Part shown: piece after piece, positions 16,404 to 37,424 of the stretch | Layout of the letters: every line of letters begins with the position of its first letter | Position numbering within the stretch: the first letter of the stretch is position 1 | Source of the DNA: Acidobacteriota bacterium | GTDB lineage: Bacteria > Acidobacteriota > Vicinamibacteria > Vicinamibacterales > CAVVIG01 | Length of the DNA: 56,276 nt | NCBI GenBank assembly: GCA_003222535.1 | Contig: QHWJ01000229.1 | Location: forward strand, 1-56,276 | Reading direction: 5' to 3' | Translations under genes and position numbers: made by a program | The notes under the pieces: model-generated | Database searches by the model: none | What the model was told of the DNA's origin: nothing | The model's input: only the letters and a program-made list of their open reading frames with translations

Positions 16404-16411
16404 CAAGAGAA

Positions 16412-16447
16412 TCTGGTCATCGGGTAATCTGGTAATCGGGTAATTTG
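16412..16447. repeat. Short heptamer-like repeat (GGTAATC)
   Basis: Four units around GGTCATC/GGTAATC alternate with G/T spacers, eight bases after the stop codon of the membrane-protein gene. Confidence 0.7.
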
Positions 16448-16730: not shown

Positions 16731-16785
16731 CAGACTCCCCAGTCCCCAGTCCCCAGTCCCCAGTCCCCAAGTCCCCAGGCTGGTT
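16731..16785. repeat. Heptamer array CCCCAGT
   Basis: About five tandem units of CCCCAGT (last ones CCCCAAG) begin right after the stop codon at 16729. The unit matches a heptamer class I recall from heterocystous cyanobacteria (STRR). Confidence 0.9.
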
Positions 16786-16834
16786 GCTAGGAGCCGGCTG
16801 CCGGTTTCAGGTAGCATTCGCCCAGGAGATCACG

Positions 16835-18345
16835 ATGAAAGCTCGACTTCTGCTCGCCGTGTCGTTGTGCGCGCTCCTGCCGGCGGCGGCGATGTCGCAG
16901 GCGCTGACCAGCCTGGCGTCGGTCCGGGTCGGCTACACCACCCGCAGGAACACCGTGAAGCCCCAGGGCGAGCTCAAGGCCGAGATCGACGCGCTCGATG
17001 CGCAAATCGCAGAAGCGAGCCGGCTCGGGAAGAACGGCGAGCTCCGCCGCCTCTTCGCGAAAGGCCTCTCGCTGCTGAACGGCCGGCCATGGACTGGTGA
17101 GGCGGAGTACGCGCAGTCGATCGTGCTGCGAACCGATCGCCTCGTCTTCGATTCGTCGAAGCCCTACACCGTGAGGCTCGAGCAGATCTTCACGCCGGCG
17201 ATCGAACTGCAGCGGCCCGTCACGGCGCACGTCTCGCTTCGCAAGCGTCCGGCGCCCCCTTCGCCGAACCAGCCGCCGCAGGTCCCGGAACTGGTGAAGG
17301 ATCTCGGGACCTTCGACGGCGTGGCGCGCGACCTGCGTGAATCGCCGTTCCCGTTCGAGCTGGATCTTCACGACGTGGCGGACGGCGGGTACGTCCTGAT
17401 GGCCGAGGTGACGGATCAAAGCACGCCGCTCGGCGCCGCAGCGCTGCCCATCGCGCTGCGCAAGGGGCTCGACGAGATCGTCAGCCGTCTCGAGGCTGAC
17501 GCGGCACGTGCACCCGAGAGTCTTCGCGCGGAAATCCTGTTCCCCGTCGACCGCATGCGAAACGTGAACCGCGGGCGCCTCGAGCTGCGCACCTTCGACC
17601 CCGAGAAGGATCTCGCCGCGGCCGAAGCGACGGCCGCCGCGGCCAAATCGGGAAAGGATCCGTTCGCCGGACGCACGGGCGACATCAAGCGCCACTACCG
17701 GCTGGACGCCGCCAACGAGATCATCCCGTACCGGATCTATGTGCCGACGGCGTACACCGGAGCGAAGGCGTTCCCGCTGATCGTCGCGCTGCACGGCCTC
17801 GGGGGCACCGAGGACTCGTTCTTCGACGGCTACAACAAGGCACTGCCGCCGCTCGCCGAGCAGCACGGCTACATCGTCGCGGCACCGCTCGGGTACCGCG
17901 TGGACGGATCGTATGGGTGGGGCCTCGGCACGCCGCCAGCCGATCCGAACACGCGCCGGACGCAGGAGCTCAGCGAGCAGGACGTCATGCACGTGCTGCA
18001 GCGCGTCCGGCAGACGTACAAGATCGACGAGAGCCGGATTTATCTGATGGGCCACTCGATGGGCGCCATCGGCACGTGGAAGATCGCGCCCAAATATCCC
18101 GACATCTGGGCGGCGATCGCGCCGATTTCGGGCAACGGCGCGCCAGCGACGCTGGAGAGGATTCGCGCCGTCCCGGAGATCATCGTTCACGGCGACGCGG
18201 ATCCGACAGTCGCGGTCTCCGGATCGCGCACGATGGTCGCGAAGCTGAAGGAGCTGGGCGCGGAGCTCAAATACATCGAGGTGCCGGGCGGGCTGCACAG
18301 CGACGTCGTGGCGCCGAACATGCCCGCGATCGTCGAGGTTGTCCC
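16835..18345 (+). CDS. Secreted alpha/beta hydrolase (esterase/PHB-depolymerase-like), C-terminus lost; frame open to 18907
   Basis: AGGAGAT precedes the ATG at 16835 by four bases, and a signal peptide follows (MKARLLLAVSLCALLPAAAM). The first 280 residues or so are an extra N-domain. The hydrolase domain carries ALHGLGG (oxyanion region) and GHSMG with Ser408. Asp456 lies in HGDADPTV and His488 in GGLHSDVV, completing the triad. It should hydrolyse an ester or short polymer outside the cytoplasm. Recognisable homology ends with APNMPAI near 18340. The frame then has no stop for another 560 bases and runs antisense through all of the PspA gene. The normal last few residues and stop are missing, so the real C-terminus is either a long nonsense tail or an assembly artefact. 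Confidence 0.8.
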
Positions 18346-18913
18346 CGGCAAGCTCGGATTTGGCCTGGCTCACCGCCTCGTGGCGGTTGACCTTCTCTTT
18401 CATGCGCTCGAACGTTCTGATCGTCGAATGCCCGCCGATGGCGATCCGCGCGTCGCTGGCTTTCCCCAGCGCACGCGCCCGCCGGTGCTGCGCCAGCAGC
18501 ATGTCGCTCTTGGACTGCGCCTCGGCGAGCTTCTGTTCGAGCTTGGCGAACGCGGCCTTCAAGGTCACGACCTGCGCCCGCTGATCGGCGACCTGCTCGC
18601 GAAAACTCGTTTGCGTCCGCTCGCTGGCTTTGTGCCGCCCGAGCGCCGCGCGCGCCAGATCGTCCTGGCCGCGGTCGATGGCCAGCTCCGCTTTTCGCAG
18701 CCAGTCGGCCGCCTTGTCCCCGGTCTCCTTCTCCTTCTTCTCGAGCATGTGCTGGTCGGCGATCGAAATCGCGACCTGCGTTTTCACCTGCAGCAATTGA
18801 TTCTCCATATCGAGAATCACCTGCTTGATCATCTTCGACGGGTTCTCCGCCTTGTCGATCAAATCGTTGAGGTTGGCCCGTACCAGCGTCCCCACGCGTT
18901 CCAGTAATCCCAT
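18333..18913 (-). CDS. pspA: PspA/IM30-family membrane-stress protein, C-terminus lost; frame open through the hydrolase gene
   Basis: The start at 18913 has GAGGAG seven bases upstream and gives MGLLERVGTLVRANLNDLID. The predicted helices contain the family stretches AENPSKMIKQVILDMENQL and RTFERMKEKVNRHEA. Products of this family form oligomeric coats that stabilise the inner membrane. The match ends at ELAGDNLDDR, about 190 residues in, whereas family members run to about 220-230; the last helix is absent. The frame then continues with no stop through the whole antisense of the hydrolase gene to 16787. It is the last gene of the XRE-NfeD-flotillin operon. The loss could impair assembly control or be an assembly error. 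Confidence 0.85.
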
Positions 18914-18931
18914 CGTCGTGCTCCTCAAATC

Positions 18932-18954
18932 GTCCGCCTGAAGGCGGACACTAC
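18932..18954. repeat. REP-like stem-loop between flotillin and PspA genes
   Basis: GTCCGCC (18932-18938) pairs with GGCGGAC (18943-18949) around a TGAA loop, followed by ACTAC. On the minus strand it therefore has a GTAG head. It lies in the 53-base gap of the operon. Confidence 0.75.
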
Positions 18955-18966
18955 CAGTGGTGAAAG

Positions 18967-20400
18967 CTACGAACCAAGGGCCCCGGGGTGATCCGCCTTG
19001 TCGCCGATCTTGCGCACCCTGGACATCAGCTCCGACAACGGCATCCCCGACAACGCCTCGAACAGCGCCGGCACCTGCGCCGCCATTTTGGTGATGTCGC
19101 CGGTGATCTTGTTCACACCGGCCGCATCGCCGTTTCCCGTGGAAATCACGGTGATCTTGTCGACCTTGCTGAGCGGCGTCGCGAGCGCGGCGACGACGTC
19201 GGGCAGGCTCACGAGCAGCCGATCGAGGACCGCCGCCTGGTTGTATTCCTGGAAGGCTTCCGCCTTGTTATTCATCGCACGGGCTTCCGCGTCGCCCTTT
19301 TTGAAGATGATGTCCGCCTCCGCATCCCCTCGCAGGCGGGTCGAGGCGGCCGCGCCTTCGGCCTCGGCGGTCAGGCGCATTTTCTCGGCGCTGGCCATCG
19401 TCTCGATCCGCTGCCGCTCGACCTCGGCCGGCTTCAGGACGGTCGCCACCAGCTCCCGTTCGCGCCGGACGATCTCGGCCTCCTGCACCTTGATCTGCTG
19501 CTCCCGCTCGATCTGCTGCACCTTCACCGCCTCCGCCGTCACCTGCTGCAGCATCACGTTGGTCTGAATCTCGTACGCCTTGTCGGCCTGCGCCTGCTGA
19601 CGCTTCACGATCTCGACGTACTGCGCCTTCTTGATCTCGAGATCACGCGTCGCCTCCGCCTGCTTGGCCTGCGACAGCGTCTCCGCCAGCACCCGCTCCT
19701 GATCGGCCTGCGCCTTGGCAATGGCCGAGGCGCGGGTGGCTTCCGCGCGCTTGATCGCCGTGTCGCGATCGGCTTCAGCCGCGGCGACGTCGGCGTCGCG
19801 CTTGATGCGCGCCACATCGGGCCGGCCCATGTTGACGATGTACTCGTTCTTGTCGCGGACCTCCTTGATCGTGAACGAGATCACTTCCAGGCCCATCTTG
19901 CTCAGGTCGTCGGCGCACGTTCCGCGCATGCGATCGGCGACCATCTCCGGCTCCTTCACGATCTGCTCGACCGTGAGCTGGCCGATGATGCCGCGCAGAT
20001 GGCCTTCCATCACCAGCCGGATGAGCCCTTCACGCTGATCGGGCGACTTGGTCAGGAACTGCTCCGACGCCGTCTGAATCGAGATCGGATCCGACTTCAC
20101 CTTGATCTGCGCCACCGCCTCCACGGTGACCGCCACGCCCTGCTTCGTGTACAGGTCCTGCACCGGCGCCACGTCGAACGACATGAGCTCCAGCGACAAC
20201 TGGCGGCAGGCTTCGATCATCGGGAAGATCACCGTGCCGTGGCCCTTCACCACGCGACAGCCCCGGAAGCCGTACACGACCAGCGCCTCGTGGGGACCCG
20301 CCTTGCGATACAACGTGGCCAGGATGCTCGTGAGGAAAATCACGGAGAGCGCCATCAGCCCCACCGTGACACCGACCCCGGTCGTGATGCCCAGACCCAT
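18967..20400 (-). CDS. Flotillin-like SPFH-domain membrane protein
   Basis: The start at 20400 is set by AGGAGG just upstream; a longer frame from 20445 lacks one. The 477-residue protein has one membrane segment (residues about 3-30), an SPFH domain (about 35-190; YGFRGCRVVKGHGTVIFP, VKSDPISIQTASEQFL) and a long Ala/Glu-rich coiled coil (about 190-340; AKAQADQERVLAETLSQAKQ). It ends in a flotillin C-domain (ISTGNGDAAGVNKITGDITK). Flotillins organise membrane microdomains and oligomerise. It follows the NfeD-like gene by eight bases, the classical partner arrangement, and precedes PspA. Confidence 0.93.
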   Translation of the reverse strand: MGLGITTGVGVTVGLMALSVIFLTSILATLYRKAGPHEALVVYGFRGCRVVKGHGTVIFPMIEACRQLSLELMSFDVAPVQDLYTKQGVAVTVEAVAQIKVKSDPISIQTASEQFLTKSPDQREGLIRLVMEGHLRGIIGQLTVEQIVKEPEMVADRMRGTCADDLSKMGLEVISFTIKEVRDKNEYIVNMGRPDVARIKRDADVAAAEADRDTAIKRAEATRASAIAKAQADQERVLAETLSQAKQAEATRDLEIKKAQYVEIVKRQQAQADKAYEIQTNVMLQQVTAEAVKVQQIEREQQIKVQEAEIVRRERELVATVLKPAEVERQRIETMASAEKMRLTAEAEGAAASTRLRGDAEADIIFKKGDAEARAMNNKAEAFQEYNQAAVLDRLLVSLPDVVAALATPLSKVDKITVISTGNGDAAGVNKITGDITKMAAQVPALFEALSGMPLSELMSRVRKIGDKADHPGALGS

Positions 20401-20408
20401 GACGCCTC

Positions 20409-21038
20409 CTATGTCGGCCGTTCGTCCGCCGCAAGCTCCGTCCACGTGCGGACGTAAACCAGCCCGTTCTGCTGCCTCGTGATGACCACCTCGACGCCCT
20501 TATCGATCGCCTGGCCGTCCTCGCTGCGCGCGCCGGCGCCGCGTCGCGCCCCCGCCTGCGAGAAGAGCACCTCCCCGGTCCCGCCGGCACGAATCGGGCT
20601 GCTGACCACGCCGAGCAGGCCGACCACCTCGTAGTCGTCCGGATCCAGATTCTCGTCCGGCGCCCACAGCACCTTCACCATGAACCAGAAGACGAGCGAC
20701 GCGCCGGCGCAGCCGACGATGATCGCCAGCAGCAGTGCGGCAAGCGGCCAGATGTCGGCATAGCGCGTGAGGAGATACCCGGCGCCGCCGAACCACGCGA
20801 GAAACGCCGTCAGCGTCGCGACGTTGAACGGCGAGGGCGCGCTGTGAAGGCTAATGCCGTGCGCGGCGCGAGCGCCGTGGCCGCCGTGCCCGCTGTGGCC
20901 GTGCGCCGGCGCGCCGCCGTGGCCGTGGCCCACGTGCGGCAAGTGCAGGTGGAGGTGGAGGACTCCAAGCAGCCAGGAAACGGCACTCAGCGAGAACCCC
21001 AGCAAAAAGCAGACGAGATACACCGTCGTCCACGTCAT
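20409..21038 (-). CDS. NfeD/YqiJ-like membrane protein with His-rich loop
   Basis: The 209-residue protein has one N-terminal membrane helix (TVYLVCFLLGFSLSAVSWLL) and a His-rich loop at residues about 27-66 with a run of HGH/HGGH repeats. Two more helices follow (about 73-125), then a C-terminal beta-rich OB-like domain (about 135-205; YEVVGLLGVVSSPIRAGGTGEV). This is the arrangement of NfeD/YqiJ proteins, which partner with flotillins. The His-rich loop is unusual and could bind metal ions such as Zn or Ni. It starts 20 bases after the regulator gene and is coupled to the flotillin gene downstream. Confidence 0.85.
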   Translation of the reverse strand: MTWTTVYLVCFLLGFSLSAVSWLLGVLHLHLHLPHVGHGHGGAPAHGHSGHGGHGARAAHGISLHSAPSPFNVATLTAFLAWFGGAGYLLTRYADIWPLAALLLAIIVGCAGASLVFWFMVKVLWAPDENLDPDDYEVVGLLGVVSSPIRAGGTGEVLFSQAGARRGAGARSEDGQAIDKGVEVVITRQQNGLVYVRTWTELAADERPT

Positions 21039-21571: not shown

Positions 21572-21610
21572 TGCAATCAGCAATATATAGATTGCAGATT
21601 GCAATGTCAA
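21570..21610 (-). promoter_or_regulatory. Near-consensus promoter with ATTGCAAT operator copies, nearly leaderless
   Basis: On the minus strand TTGACA (21610-21605) is separated by 17 bases from TATATT (21587-21582), close to the sigma-70 consensus. ATTGCAAT occurs at 21598-21605 and 21570-21577, with ATTGCA at 21591-21596. The 9-bp arms 21570-21578 and 21597-21605 form a perfect inverted repeat. The predicted transcript start is about four bases before the ATG, so the message would be nearly leaderless. Confidence 0.75.
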
Positions 21611-21711
21611 GGAACGCGTCGTGATCGGAGAACGAAGATCGGGACGAGCTTGATTGGACAAGCCACGGAGATCGCCCGCCGCTACGCGGCGCCGTGTCGG
21701 GCGCGCCACTT

Positions 21712-21752
21712 GAAGCGTTCCTCTCTGTGTCTTTGTGTCTCCGTGGCCAAAT
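21712..21752. repeat. CACGAA-type repeat, one half
   Basis: GTTCCTCTCTGTGTCTTTGTGTCTCCGTGG-like units form a single arm of the CACGAA repeat. It lies between the divergent XRE and secreted-protein genes. Confidence 0.55.
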
Positions 21753-21842
21753 ATGGCGTCGTCTACGTTCTAGAGCCTCATCTGGAAAAACTTGCTACAT
21801 TCCTTCAGAACACCGCTGTAGAAGATGTCTGGAGGAGGTCGC

Positions 21843-22796
21843 ATGCCGCGCTGCCACGCATCGATAATCGCCGTCTTCGTCGCGATCGCTTCTCTCGCCG
21901 CGCGTGCCGCAGCTGACGTCGAGGGTTATCAGAATCCGCCGGCGCAGGTTCCAACCACTCCTCCTGCCCGTCCCGCCGTTCCTGCCCCTCCAGCCCTTCC
22001 CGCCGATCCCGTCGTCGGCAACTGGCGCGGCACGCTCACATCGTCGTCGGGAACCGAGAGCGCGATCGTCATCACAATCGTCAAGGGAGACGACGGCTAC
22101 ACGGGCTCCACGAACGGGTTGGGTGCAACGAGTGATGCGCCGCTGAAGCGCGTCACCGTGAACGGTGCGCGCGTGGCCGTTGAGGCCGCGGACGAATCGA
22201 AGCTCGGGCAGGTGGCGCTCACGACCGATCTCACGGCCGAGGGCAACACGCTGAAGGGCACCGGGACGTTGTCGGTCGGACCGCAGCGGTTCGAGGTGAC
22301 GCTTGCCCTGCAACGGCGGCCGCGCCAGGACGCGATCCAACCCCACGTCGAGCAGCGCCTCGACTACTTCGCCGGACGCTGGACGTTCGAGTACCTCGGC
22401 GCGGAATATCCTCCGCTCAGCGCCGGTGGCAGAACCGGAACCGTTGCGTTCACGCGCGTCGGTCGATCGAACTTCATGGTGGGCCGTGTGGATGGCGAGC
22501 TGCTCGGTAAACCTTATCAGGAAAACCTGTCGATTGGATTCGATCCCGAAACCAGGATGCTCGCGTTTCTGGAGCGCCGGTCCGACGGGGTCGAGCTGGT
22601 CAGCCTCGCGAGCTGGCGGAGTCCGATCGCCATCAGCTTTCAGACGTCGCCCGTGCAGTCCGGTGGCAAGACGTATCAGTTGCGGCGGTTGCTGTCTGTG
22701 CGCTCAGCGACCGCATTCGACGTCACCGAGGAGTTTTCCGTGGACGGCGGACCATTCCGACGACTCGGCAGCGGACACTTCACCAAAACGCCGTGA
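21843..22796 (+). CDS. Secreted protein of unknown function
   Basis: GGAGGAGG ends four bases before ATG 21843, so this start is preferred over 21825. The 317-residue protein has a signal peptide (HASIIAVFVAIASLAARAAA) and then a Pro-rich linker. A beta-rich domain (about 55-155; VVGNWRGTLTSSSGTESAIV) follows. A second beta-rich domain (about 160-317; LDYFAGRWTFEYLGAE, DGELLGKPYQENLSIGFDPE) resembles DUF1579-type lipocalin-like proteins. It probably binds a hydrophobic ligand or lies at the envelope, but no catalytic residues stand out. A 26-bp tandem array begins almost immediately after the stop. Confidence 0.72.
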   Translation: MPRCHASIIAVFVAIASLAARAAADVEGYQNPPAQVPTTPPARPAVPAPPALPADPVVGNWRGTLTSSSGTESAIVITIVKGDDGYTGSTNGLGATSDAPLKRVTVNGARVAVEAADESKLGQVALTTDLTAEGNTLKGTGTLSVGPQRFEVTLALQRRPRQDAIQPHVEQRLDYFAGRWTFEYLGAEYPPLSAGGRTGTVAFTRVGRSNFMVGRVDGELLGKPYQENLSIGFDPETRMLAFLERRSDGVELVSLASWRSPIAISFQTSPVQSGGKTYQLRRLLSVRSATAFDVTEEFSVDGGPFRRLGSGHFTKTP

Positions 22797-22804
22797 GAAC
22801 GCTG

Positions 22805-22935
22805 CTCCGGTGTGAAACGCGCTCCATCGTGCTCGGGGTGAAAAGCGCGCTACCGTGCTGGGCGTGAAAAGCACTCCATTGTGCTCGGTGTGAAAAGCAC
22901 TCTACCGTGCTGGGCGTGAAAGGCGCGCACGATTG
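22805..22935 (+). repeat. 26-bp tandem hairpin array (five register points)
   Basis: GTGAAA recurs at 22812, 22838, 22864, 22890 and 22916, exactly 26 bases apart. Between them are AGCAC/GTGCT arms, for example AGCACTCCATTGTGCT and AGCACTCTACCGTGCT, each able to form a 5-bp stem. The array starts about nine bases after the stop codon. Confidence 0.92.
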
Positions 22936-22938
22936 AAA

Positions 22939-22977
22939 GTAGCGCAGCCGTTCAGGTTCTAAAGCCTTTCGCGCTAC
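22939..22977. repeat. REP-like hairpin GTAGCGC ... GCGCTAC
   Basis: GTAGCGC (22939-22945) and GCGCTAC (22971-22977) form a 7-bp perfect stem with GTAG/CTAC ends, just beyond the 26-bp array. Confidence 0.6.
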
Positions 22978-23059
22978 GACGAATGTCTGGGACCACGAAG
23001 AAACTATGAGCGGGCCGCGCGATTAAGCTCCCTGAGGATATTCAAAGCCAGAAGATGAC

Positions 23060-23152
23060 GAAGGAGCCGGGAAGAACACGAAGAAGCCAAAAACTCTTCC
23101 GTTTCTTTCGTGTGTTTCGTGGATCTTCGTGTTTTCGTGGTTGCCTTTGGTT
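23060..23152. repeat. CACGAA-type interspersed repeat
   Basis: GAACACGAAGAAGCC on the left faces TTTCGTGTGTTTCGTGG and TTCGTGTTTTCGTGG on the right. It lies just 3' of the minus-strand gene ending at 23155. Confidence 0.8.
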
Positions 23153-23154
23153 CG

Positions 23155-24396
23155 CTACCGTTGTCTCGTGCGCGTCGCGGTGGACCCGGGCAACTCGATG
23201 GTGCCGTAGTAGCCGAGCATCATCTCTTCCCAGGTCTGGTCGCCCCAGCGCACCGCGGCGGTCGGGTCGGGGTTGAATCGATTGGCCGTCGAGTTGTCGT
23301 AGTGGAAGCTCACCTTGAGCGTGGACCCCTTGGGAATGAACTTCGGTTCGGCCAGCTTGTAGCTCAGCTGCCAGTTGAAGTCGTATTTCGGCACGCGCAA
23401 CACGACTTCCTCCCGGCCGTCGGGATACAGGATCGTATAAGTCGCGTCCTTTCCTCGAACGTGCATGTGCGGATACATCGAGCTGAGATACGTATCGCGG
23501 TCGAATGTCTGTTTACCGACGACCTCGTAGTTCGGATCGCCCGGCGGAATCACGAACTGCATGTTCGGAATTGCGCCACCGCCCTCCGCGCGCAGCTTCG
23601 CGGGCGGCTCCCTGGCGAGGACGACGCCGATCTGGGTCTGGTCGACGACGCGCTGGCCGATCGTGGTGTAGTGCATCTGCAGCACGATGTCGGCGCCGGC
23701 GGGAATTTTCCGCGCGACGCCTTCCTCGAACTCGCCGTACAACCGTCCCGGGACCAGACCGCCGAGGCCGCCGCCGACTTCCTTGCGTGACGGATCTCTC
23801 GTCAGCTTCGGCTCGGGATCCGGCGCTTTGCCGTTGCCTTCGACGATGTTGCTGATGATGTGATGCACCACGCGGCGGTCGGTTGGCTTCAGCTCGACCG
23901 CCTTGATCCAGATGTCCTCTTTCAGATTCGTCGGGATCGAGACGTACATGTACGGCACGGTACCGTCGGCCGGCACGGTGAACGGCTGCTGCATCGTGAA
24001 CACGAAGTCGGGTTTGCCGATCGACCAGCCTTCGGCGAAAGTCGGAGCAGCCGGCAGTTCGGCGCGGTTGCCTTCCGGCGCGCCGCCATCCACCCACGCG
24101 GCGATCGTATCGATCTCGGCCTGCTTCAGGCTCACGTCGTTGGAGTATTTGCCGACAGTCGGGTCGGCGCCCCACGGCGGCATCTGCCGCGTCGCGACCT
24201 TCTGCCTGATTGCCCGCGCCCATGGCCGCGCGTCCTCATACGTCATGAGCGACATGGGCGCCATCGCGCTCGGCCGATGACACTCGACGCAACTCTTGAA
24301 GAGGATCGGCGCGACGTCCTTGCTGAACGTCGGGGCTCCAGCAGACGCCGAGCTCGCGCACACGAGAACGGCCGCGGTCATCATGGCTACGCGCAT
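23155..24396 (-). CDS. Cytochrome c / copper-monooxygenase-like fusion protein
   Basis: ATG at 24396 follows AAGGAGA and gives a signal peptide (MRVAMMTAAVLVCASSASAG). Residues 21-120 are a cytochrome-c-like domain with one haem site, CVECH at Cys36-His40. The rest resembles the peptidylglycine-monooxygenase/ascorbate-dependent copper fold: VHHIISNI, LQMHYTTIG and MYPHMHVRGKDATY supply likely copper-binding His residues, and HYDNSTANRFNPDP is a familiar family motif. Such proteins are common in Acidobacteria and Planctomycetes. A periplasmic oxidation with electrons passed through the haem is plausible. The substrate is unknown, and the family may not be catalytic. Confidence 0.85.
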   Translation of the reverse strand: MRVAMMTAAVLVCASSASAGAPTFSKDVAPILFKSCVECHRPSAMAPMSLMTYEDARPWARAIRQKVATRQMPPWGADPTVGKYSNDVSLKQAEIDTIAAWVDGGAPEGNRAELPAAPTFAEGWSIGKPDFVFTMQQPFTVPADGTVPYMYVSIPTNLKEDIWIKAVELKPTDRRVVHHIISNIVEGNGKAPDPEPKLTRDPSRKEVGGGLGGLVPGRLYGEFEEGVARKIPAGADIVLQMHYTTIGQRVVDQTQIGVVLAREPPAKLRAEGGGAIPNMQFVIPPGDPNYEVVGKQTFDRDTYLSSMYPHMHVRGKDATYTILYPDGREEVVLRVPKYDFNWQLSYKLAEPKFIPKGSTLKVSFHYDNSTANRFNPDPTAAVRWGDQTWEEMMLGYYGTIELPGSTATRTRQR

Positions 24397-24504
24397 ATCG
24401 TCTCCTTCGCTCGCCTGAAAGGCTCGCGCTCCATCCGCCGGAACGCGACACTCGCCTGAAGAACCTGAGAAGAAATCACGTACAACGCACAAACCGCGGA
24501 ACCC

Positions 24505-24585
24505 GCATGGTTCGACAGGCTCACCATGAGCGGTTCGACAGGCTCACCATGAGCGCTCATCCTGAGCTTGTCGAAGGGTGCGAGT
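24505..24585. repeat. CTTCGACAGGCTCA-type repeat cluster
   Basis: Two direct copies of GGTTCGACAGGCTCACCATG and one inverted copy (CTCATCCTGAGCTTGTCGAA) lie between the cytochrome fusion gene and the Oar receptor gene. Confidence 0.9.
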
Positions 24586-24623
24586 TCTGCGTTCAACGTC
24601 GGATTTCTTCACAAGCTCTAAAG

Positions 24624-24730
24624 GCGTCGCGCTCGATCCGGAGCGCGACGCTCGCTGAAACGCTCGCGCTCCGTCCGCTCGCCTGAAGGCGTCGCGCTCC
24701 ATCCGCCGGAGCGCGCGGGCGGCGCCCTAC
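24624..24730. repeat. GC-rich hairpins 3' of the Oar receptor gene
   Basis: GCGTCGCGCTC (24624-24634) pairs perfectly with GAGCGCGACGC (24641-24651) over GATCCG. A second related unit with CCGCCGGAGCGCGC follows and ends in CCCTAC, so it has a GTAG head on the minus strand. The 340-base gap 24397-24736 holds only these and the CTTCGAC repeats; I see no gene in it. Confidence 0.7.
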
Positions 24731-24736
24731 GGCCAC

Positions 24737-27637
24737 CTACCAGTCGATGCGTCCACCCAATTGTAACCGGCGACCCTGGACGATGCTGCCCGGGGTGAAG
24801 TAGTTCGGACCGACGGTCTCGTTCACGGTGAGGATCGTCGAGAAGTTCGGCAGGTTGAAGATCTCGACGAACGGCTCGACTCGAGTGTGCCCGTACCGAA
24901 ACGTCCGCGCGAGCCGCGCATCGAGCGTCTTGACGTAGTCGTAGTACTGCGTCGTCGGATCGACGGCCACCACGGTCAGGTTGCCGCCGCCGGTCAGCGC
25001 GAGCCCCGCGATCGCGCTGTTGAAGGTGTAGAACGACCCGACGCTGATGCCGGGCCGCGCCTGGAACGTGGCACTCACGCTGACGCCGTACGGCAAGGTG
25101 TATGCGCCCGACGCTTTGTACAGCGTCTGGAAGGGCGGGACCAGGCTGCAGAAACGAAAATTGTTCGGATTCGACGGCGTCGCATTCGCGGCCGTCGTCG
25201 CCGGGCCGTCGCAGTTGTTCGTGGCCGTTCGTTCCGTCGTCACGCCTCCGAAGACGAATCCGCGCCCCAGGCGCGCGTTCACGCTCACCTCGATGCCGTT
25301 GTACACACGCGAGTTCTTGTCGGACCAGGTGACCACGTTGTTCACCAGACCGAGCCTGGCCGGATTCAGGTTGTACATCGTGATCGACTGGCCGCCGCCG
25401 CCGGGCAGACTTGAATTGTTCGGTATGACAATCGTAAACGGCGTGTAGTCGGTGTCCGGATTGACCAGCGTGTTCCGCGTCACCTGCAGGTGCTGGAACG
25501 TCCGATGATAGTAGCCGCCGGTGACCGACACTCTCGGGAAGAGCTCGTGCTGCACCGTGACCGCCTCTTCCCAATTCGTCGGACGGGGCAGGTCGGGATC
25601 GAACTGCGTGCCGCCCGCCGGCAGACCGAAATTGTTGTTGCGTGTCGGACCGACGATCTCGTTGAGCTGCACGTTGCCGCTCGCGTCGAAGATCGTGCCG
25701 TTGCGGTCGAGATCGCTCCAGGTCCGCGCGTCGGTCTGAGCGGCGAGCGGATTGACCGACGAGGCCAGGCCGAGCGCCTGCTGGCCAACGAACTTGCCGA
25801 TCGAGGTCTTGAGCGCCGTCTTGCCGGTTCCAAAGAGATCGTAGGACGCGCCGAAGCGGACCGTCCAGTCCTTCCAGCACGGCACGCAGGAGATCGGATC
25901 GATGTGCGCGCGCGCCGCCTGAGCCGCGGCCGACATGAAGCGTCCACCGGCCGCCGACTCCTCGGGTATCGACGCGTTGAAATAGTCGAAGCGCGCGCCG
26001 TAGGTCAGCGTCAACTGCTTCAGCGTCCACTTGTCCTGCGCAAACCACCCGAGGTTGGCGTTCAGGTTCTCACGGCGCTTGAACGGTGAATTCGTCAGGC
26101 TGACCGTGCTCGGCGTCGCGACACCGTTCTGATTCACGTAGGTCAACACGGAAATGTCGCCGCGGCGCTCCACTTTCGTGGTTTCGTACCCCCACTGCTG
26201 GTTCACGCCGATCTTCACGTTGTGGGAGCCGGTCACGTAGGACACATTCGCCACGGTGTTCCAGATCTGGTTGAAGTAATCCTGCGGAGCGGTCGCGGAC
26301 GCGACGGTGCGCACGCTGGTCGACGAGTTGAAATGCTGGATGTCGAGAGGACCGTTTTCCGGCTGGTAATTGAATTTGTACGTGGGCACGGCCAGCGACT
26401 GACCAATCTCGAGGAGCAGGCGGCTGGTGATCGGCGAGGTCCATTTGATCTGCGACCCGTATTGCAGCGGCGTCGGCAGCCAGTACGCCGCTTCGGGCGA
26501 AATGCACGACACGCTGTTGAAGCTGGTCGCCGTGCACCCCACGTCGAATCTCCTGGTGCCGCCCTGCGATTTGTAGAACGCCCAGACGATCTTGTTTCGC
26601 TCGCTCGCCTGCCATGTCAGGCGAACCGTCGAGTGCGGCGCCACCTGCCCGCCCGACTCCGAGGTGCCGCCCTGCGGGAAGTACGCCGTGGGCAGTGAAA
26701 TCCGGTTGTTCGTCTGAGACACGCGCTGCGCGAAAAGGAACCACAGTCGGCTCCGCCGGATCGGTCCGCCCACGACGGCATTGACGTCGTAGGTGTAATC
26801 GATGCTGCTGCCGGCCGAGATATACGGCTTCAGCTCGCCGGTGATGTTGTCGTTCTGCAGCGATCCGGTGCCGCCGAACACGCGCAGGATGCCGGCGAAG
26901 GTGTTACCGCCCTCTTTCGGGATCGAATCCATCCGCACACCGCCGAGCGCATTTTCGGCGGACTGCGATCCGGCGTCGTAGACGAGCTCCTGCTGTGCGA
27001 GCTCGTTGACGCCGACGCCGTTGCCCTGCTGGCCGTTCTGCGTCAGGTTCTGGCCGATGTTCATGCCGTCGAAGTAGATGTGCTGGTCCTCTCGCAGCGA
27101 GCCGTGGATGCTCATGTTGCTGGTGAACCCTTGACTGTAGAAGCTGACGCCGGGCACGAGGCTCGCGCCTCCCTGCATGGTCCGCGCGGCGGGCAGCACG
27201 TCCAGCGCCTGTCGGTTGAGGACGGCCTGATTCTGCGTGCTCTGCGTGTCGACGACCGGCGACGCGCCGGTGACGGTCACCGTCTCCTCGAGGGTGCCGA
27301 CCGCCAGCGCGGCGTTCACCTGCGCCGCAAATGCGCCCTCCAGCACGATGCCTTCGCGCTTGACGGTTCTGAAGCCGGGCAGCGTGAACGTGACGGTGTA
27401 GGTGCCGGGACGAAGATCGATGATCGAATAGCGACCCGCGCCATCGGTCACGGCGCTCCGCACCTGCTCGATCAAGGCGGGACTCGCCGCCTCGACGGTG
27501 ACGCCGGGCATCACGGCGCCCGACGAGTCCTGGACGACTCCAACGATGCTCGCGCGCTGCTGCGCGCGCGCCGTCGCCGGGACGAGAAGGAGAGCGGCGC
27601 ACGTACAGGCGATCGCGGCGTCCGTCACTCGACGCAT
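24737..27637 (-). CDS. Oar-like TonB-dependent receptor with carboxypeptidase-regulatory domain
   Basis: This 966-residue protein has a signal peptide ending ATARAQ. A carboxypeptidase-regulatory-like beta-sandwich (residues about 30-110; GVVQDSSGAVMPGVTVEAAS) is followed by the plug (about 115-230) and a large barrel ending in Trp (LQLGGRIDW). This is the Oar/SusC-like architecture common in Acidobacteria. AGGAGGG precedes the ATG. It probably imports a peptide, glycan or other large ligand in a TonB-dependent way. A strong promoter lies at 27667-27695, divergent from the next gene. Confidence 0.93.
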   Translation of the reverse strand: MRRVTDAAIACTCAALLLVPATARAQQRASIVGVVQDSSGAVMPGVTVEAASPALIEQVRSAVTDGAGRYSIIDLRPGTYTVTFTLPGFRTVKREGIVLEGAFAAQVNAALAVGTLEETVTVTGASPVVDTQSTQNQAVLNRQALDVLPAARTMQGGASLVPGVSFYSQGFTSNMSIHGSLREDQHIYFDGMNIGQNLTQNGQQGNGVGVNELAQQELVYDAGSQSAENALGGVRMDSIPKEGGNTFAGILRVFGGTGSLQNDNITGELKPYISAGSSIDYTYDVNAVVGGPIRRSRLWFLFAQRVSQTNNRISLPTAYFPQGGTSESGGQVAPHSTVRLTWQASERNKIVWAFYKSQGGTRRFDVGCTATSFNSVSCISPEAAYWLPTPLQYGSQIKWTSPITSRLLLEIGQSLAVPTYKFNYQPENGPLDIQHFNSSTSVRTVASATAPQDYFNQIWNTVANVSYVTGSHNVKIGVNQQWGYETTKVERRGDISVLTYVNQNGVATPSTVSLTNSPFKRRENLNANLGWFAQDKWTLKQLTLTYGARFDYFNASIPEESAAGGRFMSAAAQAARAHIDPISCVPCWKDWTVRFGASYDLFGTGKTALKTSIGKFVGQQALGLASSVNPLAAQTDARTWSDLDRNGTIFDASGNVQLNEIVGPTRNNNFGLPAGGTQFDPDLPRPTNWEEAVTVQHELFPRVSVTGGYYHRTFQHLQVTRNTLVNPDTDYTPFTIVIPNNSSLPGGGGQSITMYNLNPARLGLVNNVVTWSDKNSRVYNGIEVSVNARLGRGFVFGGVTTERTATNNCDGPATTAANATPSNPNNFRFCSLVPPFQTLYKASGAYTLPYGVSVSATFQARPGISVGSFYTFNSAIAGLALTGGGNLTVVAVDPTTQYYDYVKTLDARLARTFRYGHTRVEPFVEIFNLPNFSTILTVNETVGPNYFTPGSIVQGRRLQLGGRIDW

Positions 27638-27666
27638 TGGGGCCCTCCTGCCGGCTTGTGGCCCTG

Positions 27667-27695
27667 ATACTCGGACCTGCCCTGTTCAGTGTCAA
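27667..27695 (-). promoter_or_regulatory. Sigma-70-like promoter for the Oar receptor gene
   Basis: On the minus strand TTGACA (27695-27690) and GAGTAT (27672-27667) are spaced by 17 bases, about 30 bases before the start codon. Confidence 0.65.
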
Positions 27696-27733
27696 CAGTT
27701 CTTTTCAGCGTCTTCGGTAAGTCTTTGTAGAAC

Positions 27734-27763
27734 CTTGACATTCTGAGGTGAGTGCAGCCAGTA
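27734..27763 (+). promoter_or_regulatory. Sigma-70-like promoter for the secreted-protein gene
   Basis: TTGACA (27734-27739) is followed after about 18 bases by CAGTAT, with the GTG start at 27791. It is divergent from the receptor promoter, 38 bases away. Confidence 0.55.
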
Positions 27764-27790
27764 TGTTCGCCTGCGGGAGGTGTGTTCCAC

Positions 27791-28660
27791 GTGCGAAAAA
27801 CGTTGACTGGCGTGTTGATCGCGGTCGTCGCAGCCGCGGCCGGAGCTCTCTTCGCCGTAACGGCGATCCCGCTGTCCGGACAGGCACCGCCTTACCGGGC
27901 GCCGCGGACCGCCGACGGCAAACCGGATCTCAACGGCATCTGGCAGGCAAATAGCGAAGCCAATTACGATCTCGAGGCCCACATGGCGCGGCCGGCGCTC
28001 GCGCTCAGGGCCGGACCGTACGGCCCCGTGCCCGCGGCGGCGGTGCTGGCGCTCGGCGCGGTCGGAGCGGTGCCCCCGGGGTTGGGCGTCGTCGAAGGCG
28101 GCCCGATTCCGTACAAGCCGGAGGCGGCCGCCAAGAAGAAAGACAACCAGGATCACTGGCTCGAGCGCGATCCCGAAATCAAGTGCTATCTGCCGGGCGT
28201 GCCGCGCGCGACCTACATGCCGCAGCCGTTTCAGATTCTCCAGAGCCAGAGCGCCCTGTTCATTGCCTACCAATATGCCGGAGCCGTGCGGAACATCTAT
28301 CTGAAAAACCCCGGGCCGCCGCCGGTCGACTCCTGGATGGGCCAGTCGTCCGCCCGGTGGGAAGGCGAAACGCTCGTCGTCGACGCCACGGGTTTCAACG
28401 ACAGCACATGGTTCGACCGGGCCGGCAACTTCCACAGCGATCAGCTCCACGTCGTAGAGCGTTACACCCGTACGTCACCGGACGTGATCAGCTACGAAGC
28501 GACGATCGAGGATCCGCAAACCTTCACGCGGCCGTGGAAGATCAGCCTGCCGCTCTACCGCCGGGTCGAGAAGAACGCGCAGCTCATGGACTTCAAGTGC
28601 GTGGAGTTCGTCGAAGAGCTGCTGTACGGCCAGTGGCGCAAGACGCCGCTGCCCAGGTAA
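27791..28660 (+). CDS. Secreted protein, 'TADGKPDLNGIWQ' family
   Basis: GTG at 27791 is preferred because GGGAGG lies ten bases upstream and a signal peptide follows (RKTLTGVLIAVVAAAAGALF); an in-frame ATG at 27752 lacks this. The mature protein opens with PRTADGKPDLNGIWQ and includes WEGETLVVDATGFNDSTWF and VVERYTRTSPDVISYEATIE. These match motifs in the three longer proteins at 28.7, 30.4 and 34.3 kb, so it is a shorter relative. The function is unknown; the family is frequent in Acidobacteria as secreted proteins near TonB receptors. It forms a run with the next three genes. Confidence 0.8.
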   Translation: MRKTLTGVLIAVVAAAAGALFAVTAIPLSGQAPPYRAPRTADGKPDLNGIWQANSEANYDLEAHMARPALALRAGPYGPVPAAAVLALGAVGAVPPGLGVVEGGPIPYKPEAAAKKKDNQDHWLERDPEIKCYLPGVPRATYMPQPFQILQSQSALFIAYQYAGAVRNIYLKNPGPPPVDSWMGQSSARWEGETLVVDATGFNDSTWFDRAGNFHSDQLHVVERYTRTSPDVISYEATIEDPQTFTRPWKISLPLYRRVEKNAQLMDFKCVEFVEELLYGQWRKTPLPR

Positions 28661-28678
28661 GGTCAGGGAACTGTCTCG

Positions 28679-29776
28679 ATGCGTCAACAGCTGTTCACGG
28701 CGTCATGCGTCTTCGCTGGTGTGATCGCCGGGGTGTGCTCGACGCCGGTACACGTGGCCGGCCAGGCGCCCAAAGCGGCCGCGACAACAAAGGGCTCGAT
28801 TCCCCGGCTGGCTGACGGCCATCCGGATCTGCAGGGGACGTTCGACCTCGCGACGCTGACGCCGGTCGAGCGTCAGGCCGGCACACCGATCACCCTGACC
28901 GACGAGCAGGCGGCGAAGCTCGAAAAGCAGGTGGCCGCGACGAAGAACTACCAGGCGAGACCGGTCGACGGCGATCGTCCGGCGCCTCCGGTCGGCGGAG
29001 ACGGATCGGCGGGCCCGGCCGGCAATGTCGGCGGGTACAACAGTTTCTGGATTGATTCCGGGTCGCACTACTCGGTCATCGATGGACAGAAGCGCGCCTC
29101 GATCCTCGTCGACCCACCTGATGGGCGCATACCACCGCTGACGCCGGCGGGACGGCAACGTGTTGCCCTCAACGTCCGGCCGACCTCGGATCAATCCGCT
29201 CGCGAGGACGACCCGGGGTTCGAACCTAACGGCGCCTACGACGATCCCGAGAGGCGGCCGCTCGGCGAGCGCTGCCTGATGGGATTCGGCTCGACGTCGG
29301 GTCCGCCCGTGCTGCCGAACTACTTCTACAACAACCTGCATCAGATCGTGCAGACGCCCGGCTCGGTGCTGATCCTCACCGAGATGGTCCACGACGCGCG
29401 CATCGTCCGGATGAACAGCGAGCACCTGCCGAAGACGATCAGGAAGTGGATGGGCGATTCCGTCGGCCACTGGGAAGGCGACACGCTCGTGGTCGACACG
29501 ACGAACTTCTCCGACAAGACCCGGTACCGCGGATCCACCGAGAACCTGCACATCGTCGAGCGCTTCACGCGCGTGGACCCGAAGACGGTGCTCTACCGGT
29601 TCACGGTGGAGGATCCAGACACGTGGACCGGAGCGTGGACGGGCGAGTACCCCTGGCAGGCGACCGACGAGCTCATGTACGAATACGCGTGCCACGAGGC
29701 CAACTACGCGCTGGGTAACATCCTCCGGGGCGCGCGGCTGAAGGAAGCCAACGACGCGAAGAAAACGAAACAATAG
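28679..29776 (+). CDS. Secreted protein of the 'DGHPDLQGTFD' family, copy 1
   Basis: The 365-residue product has a signal peptide (QQLFTASCVFAGVIAGVCST) and a domain opening RLADGHPDLQGTFDLATLTP. It then has GGYNSFWIDSG, LVDPPDGRIPPLTP, GERCLMGFGSTSGPP, the block HWEGDTLVVDTTNFSDKTRY and the final EYACHEANYALGNI. No known catalytic motif is visible. It is a close paralogue of the gene at 30412-31464 (the same blocks in the same order) and is related to the one at 34250-35242. It starts 18 bases after the previous gene and is 12 bases from the DUF6152 gene, so co-transcription is likely. Confidence 0.85.
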   Translation: MRQQLFTASCVFAGVIAGVCSTPVHVAGQAPKAAATTKGSIPRLADGHPDLQGTFDLATLTPVERQAGTPITLTDEQAAKLEKQVAATKNYQARPVDGDRPAPPVGGDGSAGPAGNVGGYNSFWIDSGSHYSVIDGQKRASILVDPPDGRIPPLTPAGRQRVALNVRPTSDQSAREDDPGFEPNGAYDDPERRPLGERCLMGFGSTSGPPVLPNYFYNNLHQIVQTPGSVLILTEMVHDARIVRMNSEHLPKTIRKWMGDSVGHWEGDTLVVDTTNFSDKTRYRGSTENLHIVERFTRVDPKTVLYRFTVEDPDTWTGAWTGEYPWQATDELMYEYACHEANYALGNILRGARLKEANDAKKTKQ

Positions 29777-29788
29777 GGCGAGGTGGTC

Positions 29789-30277
29789 ATGATTCGCACA
29801 AATCTCTTGTTGTCCGCGGCGGGTCTGTTCCTGGTGACGGCACCGGTGTGGGGGCATCACGCGTTCGGCGGTGAATTCGATCCGAACAAGCCGGTGTTGT
29901 TGAAAGGCCCGGTGACCAAGGTCGAGTGGGTGAATCCGCACGCGTGGATTCACGTGGAGGTTCCGAAGGAGGACGGCGCCCAATCCTGTCAATTCACGCC
30001 GAACGCGAAGTGCGAGGAGTGGATGGTCGAGGGCGGCACGCCGAACACCCTGCTCCGGCGGGGCATCACCAGAGAGTCGCTCAAGGTCGGCACCGTCCTG
30101 GTCATCGACGGCTACCAGGCGCGCGACCATTCATTGTTGAGAGCGAACGGCCGCAACGTCACGTACCCGGACGGCAAGAAGCTGTTCCTGGGCTCGTCCG
30201 GCACCGGTGCGCCGACCGACGGCGCGGATCCGACTGACGCCGCCAAGCCCACGGGACGTGGCAGAGGCGGCCTCTGA
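29789..30277 (+). CDS. Secreted DUF6152-family protein
   Basis: ATG at 29789 has GAGG five bases upstream. The 162-residue protein has a signal peptide (IRTNLLLSAAGLFLVTAPVW) and begins as a mature protein with GHHAFGGEFDPNKPV. It continues with GPVTKVEWVNPHAWIHVEV, the typical DUF6152 pattern of an OB-like beta-barrel. The C-terminus is Gly/Arg-rich (GRGRGGL). It lies between two near-identical paralogues of the 'DGHPDLQG' family, a pairing I associate with this family in Acidobacteria. The role is unknown. Its stop is followed at once by an ATTGCGG heptamer array. Confidence 0.85.
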   Translation: MIRTNLLLSAAGLFLVTAPVWGHHAFGGEFDPNKPVLLKGPVTKVEWVNPHAWIHVEVPKEDGAQSCQFTPNAKCEEWMVEGGTPNTLLRRGITRESLKVGTVLVIDGYQARDHSLLRANGRNVTYPDGKKLFLGSSGTGAPTDGADPTDAAKPTGRGRGGL

Positions 30278-30400
30278 TATTGCGGATTGCGGATTGCGGA
30301 TTATTGCGGATTGAGAATCCGCGGTCCGCAGTCGCAAATCCAATCCACAATCCAATCCGCAGTCCGTAATCCGCAATCCGAGATCCGCAATTCGAAGGCG
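30278..30400. repeat. Heptamer array (ATTGCGG / ATCCGCA) with inverted halves
   Basis: Units of ATTGCGG on the left face ATCCGCA/ATCCACA units on the right, forming a long hairpin that starts two bases after the stop codon. Confidence 0.88.
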
Positions 30401-30411
30401 CGGAGGCTGTT

Positions 30412-31464
30412 ATGCGTACGACTCTCGCCGTCACCCTCGCCCTTGTCGCCCTTACGGCGGCGCTCGCTTCCGGGCAGACTGCCAAGCCGATCCCCCGTAC
30501 CGCCGATGGCCATCCCGATCTTCAAGGCACCTATGACATCGCGACCATGACGCCGCTCGAGCGGGCCGCGGCGACGCCGCTCGTGATGACAAAGGAGGAA
30601 GCCGCCAAACTCGAGCAGCAGCGATCCGATCGCGTGCAGCGCGCGGCCCTGCCGAGCAAGGGGGACAGAAGCGCCCCACCGGTCGGCGGAGATGGATCGG
30701 CCGGCGCCGCGGGGAACGTCGGCGGCTACAACAACTTCTGGATCGACAACGGCACGGAATACTTCAGCATCGACGGCCAGAAGCGGATGTCGGTGATTGT
30801 GGATCCGCCGGATGGACGTATTCCAGCCCTCGTACCCGCAGCTGAGGAGCGGGCCGCCGGTCGCGTGGCGCGGCCGACGGCCGACGCGCAGGAGAGCGAC
30901 CCTGGCTTCGAAGGCACGACCGCGTACGACGACATGGAGCGCCGCCCGCTGGGCGAGCGCTGTCTGCTGGGATTCGGATCGACGTCAGGACCGCCCTCGC
31001 TTCCGGTGCTCTACAACAATCTTCATCAGATCGTGCAGACCGCCGACTCCGTCATGATTCTCAACGAGATGGTCCACGACGCGCGGATCGTCCGGATGAA
31101 CAGCGAGCATCTGCCGACGACGATCAGGAAGTGGCTGGGCGATTCGGTCGGCCGCTGGGATGGCGACACGCTCGTCGTCGACACGACCAATTTCACCGAC
31201 AAGACACGGTTCAGACAGTCGAGCGAGAACCTGCACGTCGTCGAGCGCTTCACGCGGATCGACGCGAAGACGCTGCGCTATCGGTTCACGGTCGAGGATC
31301 CGTCGACGTGGGTGCGCGCCTGGTCGGGCGAGGAGGCGTGGCCCGCCACCAACGATTTGATGTACGAATACGCGTGCCACGAGGCCAACTACGCGCTTGG
31401 CGACATCATGCGCGGCGCGCGGCTTCGAGAAGCCGACGCGGCGAGGAAGACCAAACAACAGTAG
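30412..31464 (+). CDS. Secreted protein of the 'DGHPDLQGTYD' family, copy 2
   Basis: The 350-residue protein has a signal peptide (RTTLAVTLALVALTAALASG) and then PRTADGHPDLQGTYDIATMTP. It shares the sequence blocks GGYNNFWIDNG, VDPPDGRIPALVP, GERCLLGFGSTSGPP and RWDGDTLVVDTTNFTDKTRF with copy 1 and ends with EYACHEANYALGDIM. It is clearly a tandem duplicate of 28679-29776 separated by the DUF6152 gene and a repeat array. The function is unknown. The two may form a secreted complex with DUF6152, but that is inference. Confidence 0.85.
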   Translation: MRTTLAVTLALVALTAALASGQTAKPIPRTADGHPDLQGTYDIATMTPLERAAATPLVMTKEEAAKLEQQRSDRVQRAALPSKGDRSAPPVGGDGSAGAAGNVGGYNNFWIDNGTEYFSIDGQKRMSVIVDPPDGRIPALVPAAEERAAGRVARPTADAQESDPGFEGTTAYDDMERRPLGERCLLGFGSTSGPPSLPVLYNNLHQIVQTADSVMILNEMVHDARIVRMNSEHLPTTIRKWLGDSVGRWDGDTLVVDTTNFTDKTRFRQSSENLHVVERFTRIDAKTLRYRFTVEDPSTWVRAWSGEEAWPATNDLMYEYACHEANYALGDIMRGARLREADAARKTKQQ

Positions 31465-31477
31465 ACCGCGAAGCGCT

Positions 31478-31590
31478 CATGGTTCGACAAGCTCACCATG
31501 AGCGCTCCCGAGCCCTTCAACTCGCCGCTCACCCTGAGCCCGTCGAAGGGTGAGCCTCTCGCTCAGGACAGGCCTGTCGAAGGATGCGTT
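31478..31590. repeat. CTTCGACAGGCTCA-type repeat cluster
   Basis: Direct and inverted copies (GGTTCGACAAGCTCACCATG, CCCGTCGAAGGGTGAGCC, GCCTGTCGAAGGATGCG) lie after copy 2. The remaining bases to 31715 hold no recognisable gene. Confidence 0.88.
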
Positions 31591-31715
31591 CTCTGCGGTT
31601 TCCGACTTCTATCCGGAAAATCCTATCCACGTCCGCCGGCGGCGACGCCGAACCACAGCTTCAGCGACACGAGTGCGACCGGCTTGAAGTACAGCGATCG
31701 CGCCCGCGACTCATC

Positions 31716-32963
31716 CTAGCGCGGTACGGCCGGAGCCGGTTTGGCGAACTTCGCCGCGTCAATCGCGACATTCGGCTGCACCTCGCTCAGCTCAACGACA
31801 TCTCGACCCGACACCCATGCAAAGGACCACCGAAACGGCACCTTGACCCCGGCAACCGCCCGATAGTCATCGAAGTCGATCTGCGTGGGCACGCGGCCCA
31901 TCGCCGAGTTGGCGTAGCGCACGACGCGCTTCAGTAGGCCCGACTCCACGTCGAAGTAGAGCGTGGCGACGGCCCCCCCGGCGCCGGTTCCCTGAAGAAC
32001 ATTGACCGGGCGGCCGGCGATGTCACTCGGTAAGCTCGCGCGCCATTGGCCGAGGACCTGCTTGACGCGACCTGGAATGGACAATTCCGCGTCCAGCCTG
32101 GCGCCGTCCAGCTCTCCTCCGGTCAAATCCATCACCGGCACCGGCGTGACCGGCGATGCGAGCCAACCGGCGCGACCGTCGAAAGTCATCGTCTTGGTTC
32201 CGACCTCCGTGTGGATGATCGTGGTGCGCTGATTGGGAGCTTTGACATAGATTTCGGCCGGGCTCGGAAAGGATCCCGCGTACCCGGTGGCCTTCCCCTT
32301 GCCGACAAAGCTCGTAAGCTTGGCCAGGCGCTCGGCCCCGCCAACGGCCTGAATGTACTTGTCGAGAACCTGGCCGGGGGATGGCGCGCCGGCAGCCTGC
32401 TGGAAGAGGTCGTCGGGCGCCCAGTAGATCGGTTCGCCGTACACCACATCGAGGCTCGGCGTGACTTGGGGACGATCGCTCTGCCGATGGCAGGTCCAGC
32501 AGCTGACGACCTTTCGTCCCGTGAAGTTCGTACGATTGATGGTCTCCACCATTTGCACCATCTTGCGCGCGGTCCGCTTTCTCGGAGTGTCGGCGGCCCA
32601 GTCCGGCGCATGACACTCCAGGCAGCACATGCTCAGGGCGGCCGAGAAAAGCCCCATCGCGCCCATGAATTCATCCACGGGAATGCCTTTGAGCACCTGG
32701 ACGTTCTTGAAGGCCTCTTCTGACATCTGCGGCCGCTGTGGCTGTGGCGGCCCCGCCTGCGCTCCCGCCTGCACGAATCCCGGACGGCCGCAGGCGTCGG
32801 ACAGGACCGTACCCCGCTCCGCTTTCTTATTCGAAGGAATGGCGGAAGCCGCCGCCGCGCTCGTGGACATCCCGGTCCCACCTCTGACCAACGCGACGCC
32901 GATCAGCCACACGATCGTCGCTCCAGTAACAACAAACCTCATTCGCCTGGATCCGATCTGCAT
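31716..32963 (-). CDS. Di-haem cytochrome c, photosynthetic reaction-centre-cytochrome-like domain
   Basis: ATG at 32963 follows GGGAG and gives an N-terminal membrane or signal helix (MRFVVTGATIVWLIGVALV). KNVQVLKGIPVDEFMGAMG followed by CLECH (Cys114-His118) and CWTCH (Cys155-His159) matches the reaction-centre cytochrome c subunit family. Such domains are widespread in non-phototrophic Acidobacteria. The C-terminal half, from about residue 190, is a beta-rich domain resembling lipoprotein-carrier-type folds (YIQAVGGAERLAKLTSFVGK, LDGARLDAELSIPGRVKQ). It is probably an envelope electron carrier. It is divergent from the cytochrome gene at 33127. Confidence 0.85.
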   Translation of the reverse strand: MQIGSRRMRFVVTGATIVWLIGVALVRGGTGMSTSAAAASAIPSNKKAERGTVLSDACGRPGFVQAGAQAGPPQPQRPQMSEEAFKNVQVLKGIPVDEFMGAMGLFSAALSMCCLECHAPDWAADTPRKRTARKMVQMVETINRTNFTGRKVVSCWTCHRQSDRPQVTPSLDVVYGEPIYWAPDDLFQQAAGAPSPGQVLDKYIQAVGGAERLAKLTSFVGKGKATGYAGSFPSPAEIYVKAPNQRTTIIHTEVGTKTMTFDGRAGWLASPVTPVPVMDLTGGELDGARLDAELSIPGRVKQVLGQWRASLPSDIAGRPVNVLQGTGAGGAVATLYFDVESGLLKRVVRYANSAMGRVPTQIDFDDYRAVAGVKVPFRWSFAWVSGRDVVELSEVQPNVAIDAAKFAKPAPAVPR

Positions 32964-33126
32964 GTTGTCTCCCTTCCTCGGCCTCATGTCGCTCACCAGC
33001 ACCAGCCACACCCTCGTCCGGTAGTGTCCGGCTTCCGCCCTCGAATGATGCTTCGGCGGACAGGTCAGCCGGACTTCGTAGTGTATCAACGTCCCTCCCG
33101 AAGAAGAGACATGCGTCCGGTATTAT

Positions 33127-34125: not shown

Positions 34126-34142
34126 GTCCAGCCAAATCGGAC

Positions 34143-34252
34143 GGTCCAAATGCAACCACGAAGCCACGAAAAACGACGAAGGTCACGAAGAAGAATTCTT
34201 TGTACAAAGCCTTCTTCGCGTTCTTCGTGGATCTTCGTGTTTTCGTGGTCTA
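34143..34252. repeat. CACGAA-type interspersed repeat
   Basis: AACCACGAAGCCACGAAAAACG on the left faces TTCTTCGTGGATCTTCGTGT on the right. It sits between two convergent stop codons (34125 and 34250) and could serve as a bidirectional terminator. Confidence 0.85.
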
Positions 34253-35242: not shown

Positions 35243-35519
35243 GTGCCTGCCTCTCACTTGTTCGCGTTGACGTGGCGTCAAGATACTTCTGATGACAGTT
35301 GGAGCACGAGTCGTAAATGTCCCCGCCGACGGCAAGAGTCGATCGGCGTTCTCCGCATCCACGCCTGTGCGCATCATCCGCTCGACGCGTCCTCGGCGCG
35401 CGGCATCATCACGAGAAGGTTGCCGGATTCGTTCTTCGGCGCCCTGCGCCGTGTCGATCGTCTTCACCGCGTCCCAGGCCAACCAGAACAGCCATCCGCA
35501 TGGCAGACATGCTAACGCT
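35243..35519. other. Non-coding upstream region, no gene recognised
   Basis: This stretch lies between the start of the minus-strand copy 3 gene and the first tandem array. I see neither a family-like ORF nor a clear promoter. Frames running through it continue from the tandem array and look like by-products of it. Confidence 0.5.
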
Positions 35520-37252: not shown

Positions 37253-37261
37253 CGTCGTGGG

Positions 37262-37420
37262 CTGATCACTTCAGTCCTCGGTTCCTGGTCCTTCGTGCTT
37301 CGTCCGTCCAAGATCCTCGGTCCGTCCATGGTCCTCGGTCCGGTGCGCGGACCACGGACTCTGGACCAAGAACGGACCGAGCACCAAGAACCAAGGACCA
37401 AGGACCAAGGGGGGCGCGTT
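37262..37420. repeat. Heptamer arrays (CAAGGAC / CGGTCCT) with inverted halves
   Basis: GGTCCTTCG/CCTCGGTCC units on the left face ACCAAGGACCAAGGACC units on the right. The array starts a few bases 3' of the minus-strand stop at 37425. Confidence 0.85.
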
Positions 37421-37424
37421 CACC

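Follow-up and report, generated by a model that had tools for sequence, protein, structure and literature searches.

Two convergent genes share one junction

The window, i.e. the whole stretch of 56,276 nucleotides that we analysed, carries two convergent genes that run into each other. A gene for a PHB-depolymerase-like alpha/beta hydrolase lies at 16835..18337 on the forward strand and is truncated after residue 501 (E), as indicated by its Pfam and NCBIfam matches, by comparison with G014, a related soil bacterium of the same family, and by comparison of C-termini. pspA lies at 18326..18913 on the reverse strand, is truncated after residue 196 (the R of GDNLDDR) and was assigned through PF04012, its identity to the G014 gene and 80 homologues. 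The forward frame is open from a TTG at 16784, has its native ATG at 16835 and closes with the TAA at 18905-18907; the reverse frame, whose native ATG is at 18913-18911, is open between 18928 and 16787. These coordinates bear out the statement of the initial annotation that each frame crosses its partner gene in antisense over the whole length. The hydrolase frame has a run-on tail at 18338..18907 on the forward strand (~190 codons, antisense of pspA), the pspA frame has one at 16787..18325 on the reverse strand (~510 codons, antisense of the hydrolase), and neither tail matches a family in the Pfam and NCBIfam profile libraries.

The conserved part of each protein is well recognizable. The hydrolase matches Esterase_PHB and Peptidase_S9 above cut-off, with the profile matches stopping at about residue 495 of the 690 in the forward frame. 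Its motifs GHSMG, HGDADPT and GGLHSD are all present, which we take from knowledge of the fold to be the nucleophile elbow and the downstream Asp and His motifs. Absent from the window are the FFDAHRK-like C-terminal helix and the stop that the compared family members share. Upstream of the hydrolase we observed short tandem repeats, namely six copies of TCCCCAG and about four of AATCGGGT (window 16736-16778 and 16410-16444).

The reverse frame matches the Pfam family PspA_IM30 (PF04012, ESCRT-III superfamily) with E=1.5e-38 over residues 2-192, covering profile positions 1-190 of 220. The N-terminal helix and the coiled-coil hairpin (alpha0 to alpha4) are present, and the C-terminal helix alpha5, which contacts the hairpin of the neighbouring subunit, is absent. 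Judged by its sequence, this gene is a truncated pspA and not an intact member of the family. A search of the genome found it to be the only strong match, i.e. the only recognizable PspA copy.

Both homologies are lost together at GCGATCGTCGAG(G), positions 18326-18338, from which each frame continues antisense to its partner gene. GCGATCGTCGAGG spans the whole of 18326-18338, with the 12-bp GCGATCGTCGAG at 18326-18337 and an extra shared G at 18338. It reads A-I-V-E in the forward frame and L-D-D-R in the reverse frame, the two being in the same codon register. Hydrolase residue 501 ends at 18337, the codon of PspA residue 196 is 18328-18326, and PspA reads GDNLDDR right up to the junction as several relatives do. 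The hydrolase (APNMPAI) and PspA (GDNLDDR) homologies had been proposed to end together at 18331-18345; they do end together, but about six bases further left. Both homologies stop at GCGATCGTCGAG (18326..18337), which we presume to be a short direct repeat. A terminator scan found no T-tailed terminator at the junction or in the G014 spacer.

Comparison with related genomes

Only two of the 27 genomes of the family, that of the window and G014, have a recognizable pspA of this kind. G014 is also the sole relative keeping the gene pair, at 77-79% DNA identity to the window, and the spacer between the genes is known from G014 alone. It carries the same two genes as convergent neighbours on a single contig, which indicates that the site is more than a chance juxtaposition. 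A random chimeric contig join was considered and rejected on the same ground, namely that the two genes adjoin in the same orientation in G014.

The hydrolase is 77% identical to its G014 counterpart in DNA up to 18330, and PspA is 79% identical in protein over residues 1-196. The two window-G014 alignments overlap by five bases in the window (18326-18330) and lie 257 bases apart in G014, which has 262 bp more between the matching sites. The initial annotation had anticipated at least about 100 missing bases relative to close relatives. Of the extra 262 bp in G014, 130 bp are spacer, 42 bp close the hydrolase gene and 78 bp close pspA, the stop included in each case, and the remainder is a 12-bp word. 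The G014 hydrolase runs 13 residues further (FFDAHRKTSRVSQ) and then stops, and relative to G014 the window PspA is without 25 residues (most of alpha5) and its stop.

The wider comparison gives the same picture. We compared 12 hydrolase homologues long enough to include the site (G014, L003-L007, L009-L013 and L018), 11 from the same family and one from the same order, and every one of them ends in a short FFDAHRK-like stretch followed by a stop. On the PspA side we used 80 homologues of at least 60% identity from a species collection, nearly all of them Acidobacteriota and G014 included. All 80 end normally at 218-224 residues, leaving the window sequence as the only exception, which agrees with the proposal that PspA lacks its last helix. 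A relative sharing the stopless arrangement, named at the outset as evidence against a deletion, was looked for and not found among these 12 hydrolase and 80 PspA homologues.

Two genomes alone give no direction to the change, and one could suppose that the window keeps the older state and that G014 gained the spacer and both C-termini by insertion. The C-termini in question are conserved in the 80 PspA homologues and in the same-family hydrolases, and this scenario has next to no probability. We rejected an insertion in the relative instead of a deletion here, the lost ends being conserved in all relatives.

The two genomes also differ elsewhere. The sequences flanking 21610-39829 of the window are adjacent in G014 (contig C30, 172689 and 172613) and sit about 18 kb apart here; this ~18-kb block is either inserted in the window or lost in G014. 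The gene order upstream of 16868 is likewise unlike that of G014. Although pspA is found in only two of the 27 family genomes (window 18326-18913, 18967-20445), other Acidobacteriota commonly carry close homologues, and this patchy distribution suggests gain by transfer or repeated loss.

Codon usage keeps both frames open

The long double open frame is an expected side effect of GC-rich codon usage. The facing frames are codon-aligned, so an antisense stop requires a TTA, CTA or TCA codon, and these make up only 0.33% of the 16,772 codons of likely genes in the window. At this rate the chance of meeting no antisense stop is about 0.2 in 497 codons and about 0.5 in 195 codons. No antisense stop occurs in eleven other likely genes of the window, including those at 6744, 14287, 18967, 36077 and 47913 (391 to 527 codons). 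The long tails hence need no special explanation: the stopless frames highlighted by the initial annotation are both open as described, but their openness is not remarkable. Our literature search on antisense open frames in GC-rich genomes returned nothing specific, and it is the codon counts from the window that support the point.

The composition of the tails tells what they are. At codon positions 1/2/3 of the forward frame the GC content is 0.69/0.47/0.87 before the junction and 0.87/0.38/0.66 after it; in the reverse-frame tail it is 0.87/0.47/0.69, the mirror of the hydrolase. The flip at the junction identifies the tails as plain antisense.

One could read the two full-length open frames as a pair of near-fully overlapping convergent genes kept by selection, each making a functional chimeric protein. 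Against this reading stand the openness expected from the codon counts and the eleven other open genes, the mirror-image composition of tails that match no family, the absence of the arrangement from every compared relative, and the loss from PspA of a helix needed for assembly in the homologue Vipp1 (PMC8281802). We regard selection for the arrangement as extremely unlikely.

Deletion or artefact

Our analysis suggests that a deletion of ~262 bp through a short shared word of 5-12 bp, having taken place in the sequenced organism, is the probable and best explanation of the arrangement. It agrees with the initial proposal that both C-termini and the intergenic region were lost through short shared sequence, to which the comparison with G014 lends support and a size of 262 bp. 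In this model the deletion would have occurred between two copies of a GCGATCGTCGAG-like word, one in the hydrolase codons A-I-V-E and the other in the antisense of the pspA codons L-D-D-R, and would have taken the 3' ends of both convergent genes together with the intervening spacer. Slipped-strand mispairing or micro-homology joining would be the likely route. With both stops gone, the shared codon register would let each frame continue codon-for-codon antisense to the other gene.

The repeat itself is partly retained in G014, whose matching sites hold an exact 5-bp repeat, GCGAT, in copies 262 bp apart. A match of 5 bp or more is seen at only 1.1% of the breakpoint pairs in that part of G014. 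GCGATCGTCGAG matches the pspA side of G014 in 11 of 12 bases, the hydrolase side of G014 in 8 of 12 and the hydrolase side of the relatives in at most 10 of 12. A deletion between short repeats is likely on these sequences, with the ancestral repeat length reconstructed from them.

Structure between repeats favours slippage. The G014 spacer folds far better than its shuffled versions (z -3.9) and contains an imperfect 29-nt inverted repeat (76% complementary) that includes a dispersed repeat element. The inverted repeat (L032 1681-1805, in the G014 spacer) has the core GGGGCGGACCAGCGTGTCCGCC, and the core pattern of this dispersed repeat has 12 exact matches in the G014 genome and one in that of the window. 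By analogy with G014, a hairpin-rich spacer could perhaps have helped the deletion. A palindrome-like GTCCGCCTGAAGGCGGAC lies at 18930-18955 of the window, directly upstream of pspA and before a gene that looks flotillin-like by eye, and may be another dispersed palindrome.

The same spacer could also have misled the sequencing. If the spacer is intact in the organism, ~262 bp may have been lost by a gap closer or scaffolder overlapping contig ends, or by a polymerase skipping the hairpin-rich stretch; archaeal polymerases are reported to slip in vitro on a hairpin template (PMC4134008). An assembly or library artefact of this kind is a doubtful but serious possibility, given a draft assembly of 450 contigs, a counterpart spacer in G014 that is strongly structured and holds a repeat element in 12 exact copies, and two gene bodies that look undecayed up to the junction. 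Usual assembler word sizes exceed 12 bp. The longest word common to both sides of the junction is 12 bp and falls short of them, the window has zero N runs, and the genome has no second contig with matching flanks or with a full-length pspA, which together make a k-mer collapse unlikely. The assembly collapse raised by the initial annotation is hence possible in general but unlikely in its k-mer form.

The state of the genes bears on the timing. Relative to G014, dN and dS are 0.13 and 0.80 for PspA and 0.17 and 0.75 for the hydrolase, and both gene parts look constrained. This signal mostly reflects the time before the event, and the sole PspA of the genome lacks alpha5 without other decay, which counts against a deletion; by both facts the event would be either recent or tolerated, or else not real.

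Consequences for the two proteins

If the deletion is real, both proteins should carry meaningless tails. The hydrolase would retain its catalytic motifs and lose its last helix, and PspA should lose alpha5 and so probably its polymer assembly. These effects are inferred, as are the place of the deletion in the organism and its mechanism; directly visible are the missing stretch relative to G014, the end point of each homology and the antisense nature of the tails.

PspA aligns gap-free to cyanobacterial Vipp1 (entry 6zvr) over residues 1-216, with PspA residue 196 corresponding to Vipp1 residue 196. A Vipp1 ending at residue 191 has no alpha5 or alpha6 and does not form filaments or rings, while the protein tolerates losing just alpha6 (PMC8281802). 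F196 and M212 take part in the fixed hairpin-alpha5 contacts of PspA rods (PMC11746142). With its homology ending at residue 196, the window PspA most likely cannot assemble according to these data, and the antisense tail is unlikely to replace alpha5. It is very improbable that a real and fixed deletion has left almost completely overlapping genes whose chimeric proteins are both made and stable, with the PspA assembly helix replaced by a translation of the hydrolase antisense.

If the deletion is real, it marks a lineage in which PspA assembly has probably been lost. The site would then be a clear case, found in nature, of a single deletion making an almost completely overlapping pair out of two orderly convergent genes, and would show why GC-rich genomes yield long stopless frames after such a deletion. 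An artefact would be a warning on draft-genome joins that fall in structured intergenic regions.

Comparison with known systems

The event is of an ordinary type and its kind is already known. The nearest protein counterpart is Vipp1 1-191 (PMC8281802), which lacks alpha5 and alpha6, as the homology of the window PspA ends at residue 196, the start of alpha5. The window PspA differs in being a natural protein, known from its sequence, with a long chimeric tail in place of a clean end.

Deletions between short direct repeats leave a single repeat copy at the junction, as the proposed deletion would have done here, and a structured spacer separates the putative copies in G014. The difference is that the ancestral repeat is reconstructed in our case, with 5 bp exact in G014 and as many as 12 bp should both parents have matched the junction.

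In the stop codon mutation model, convergent overlapping genes arise by loss of a stop codon (Biol Direct 2007, PMC2174442). Here a single deletion would have taken the stop and the C-terminus of each gene, and almost all of either gene lies within the overlap, which shows no sign of being kept. The two cases otherwise agree: the genes are convergent neighbours, a mutated or deleted stop lets the frame read through into the antisense of the adjoining gene, and the distance over which it stays open depends on codon bias.
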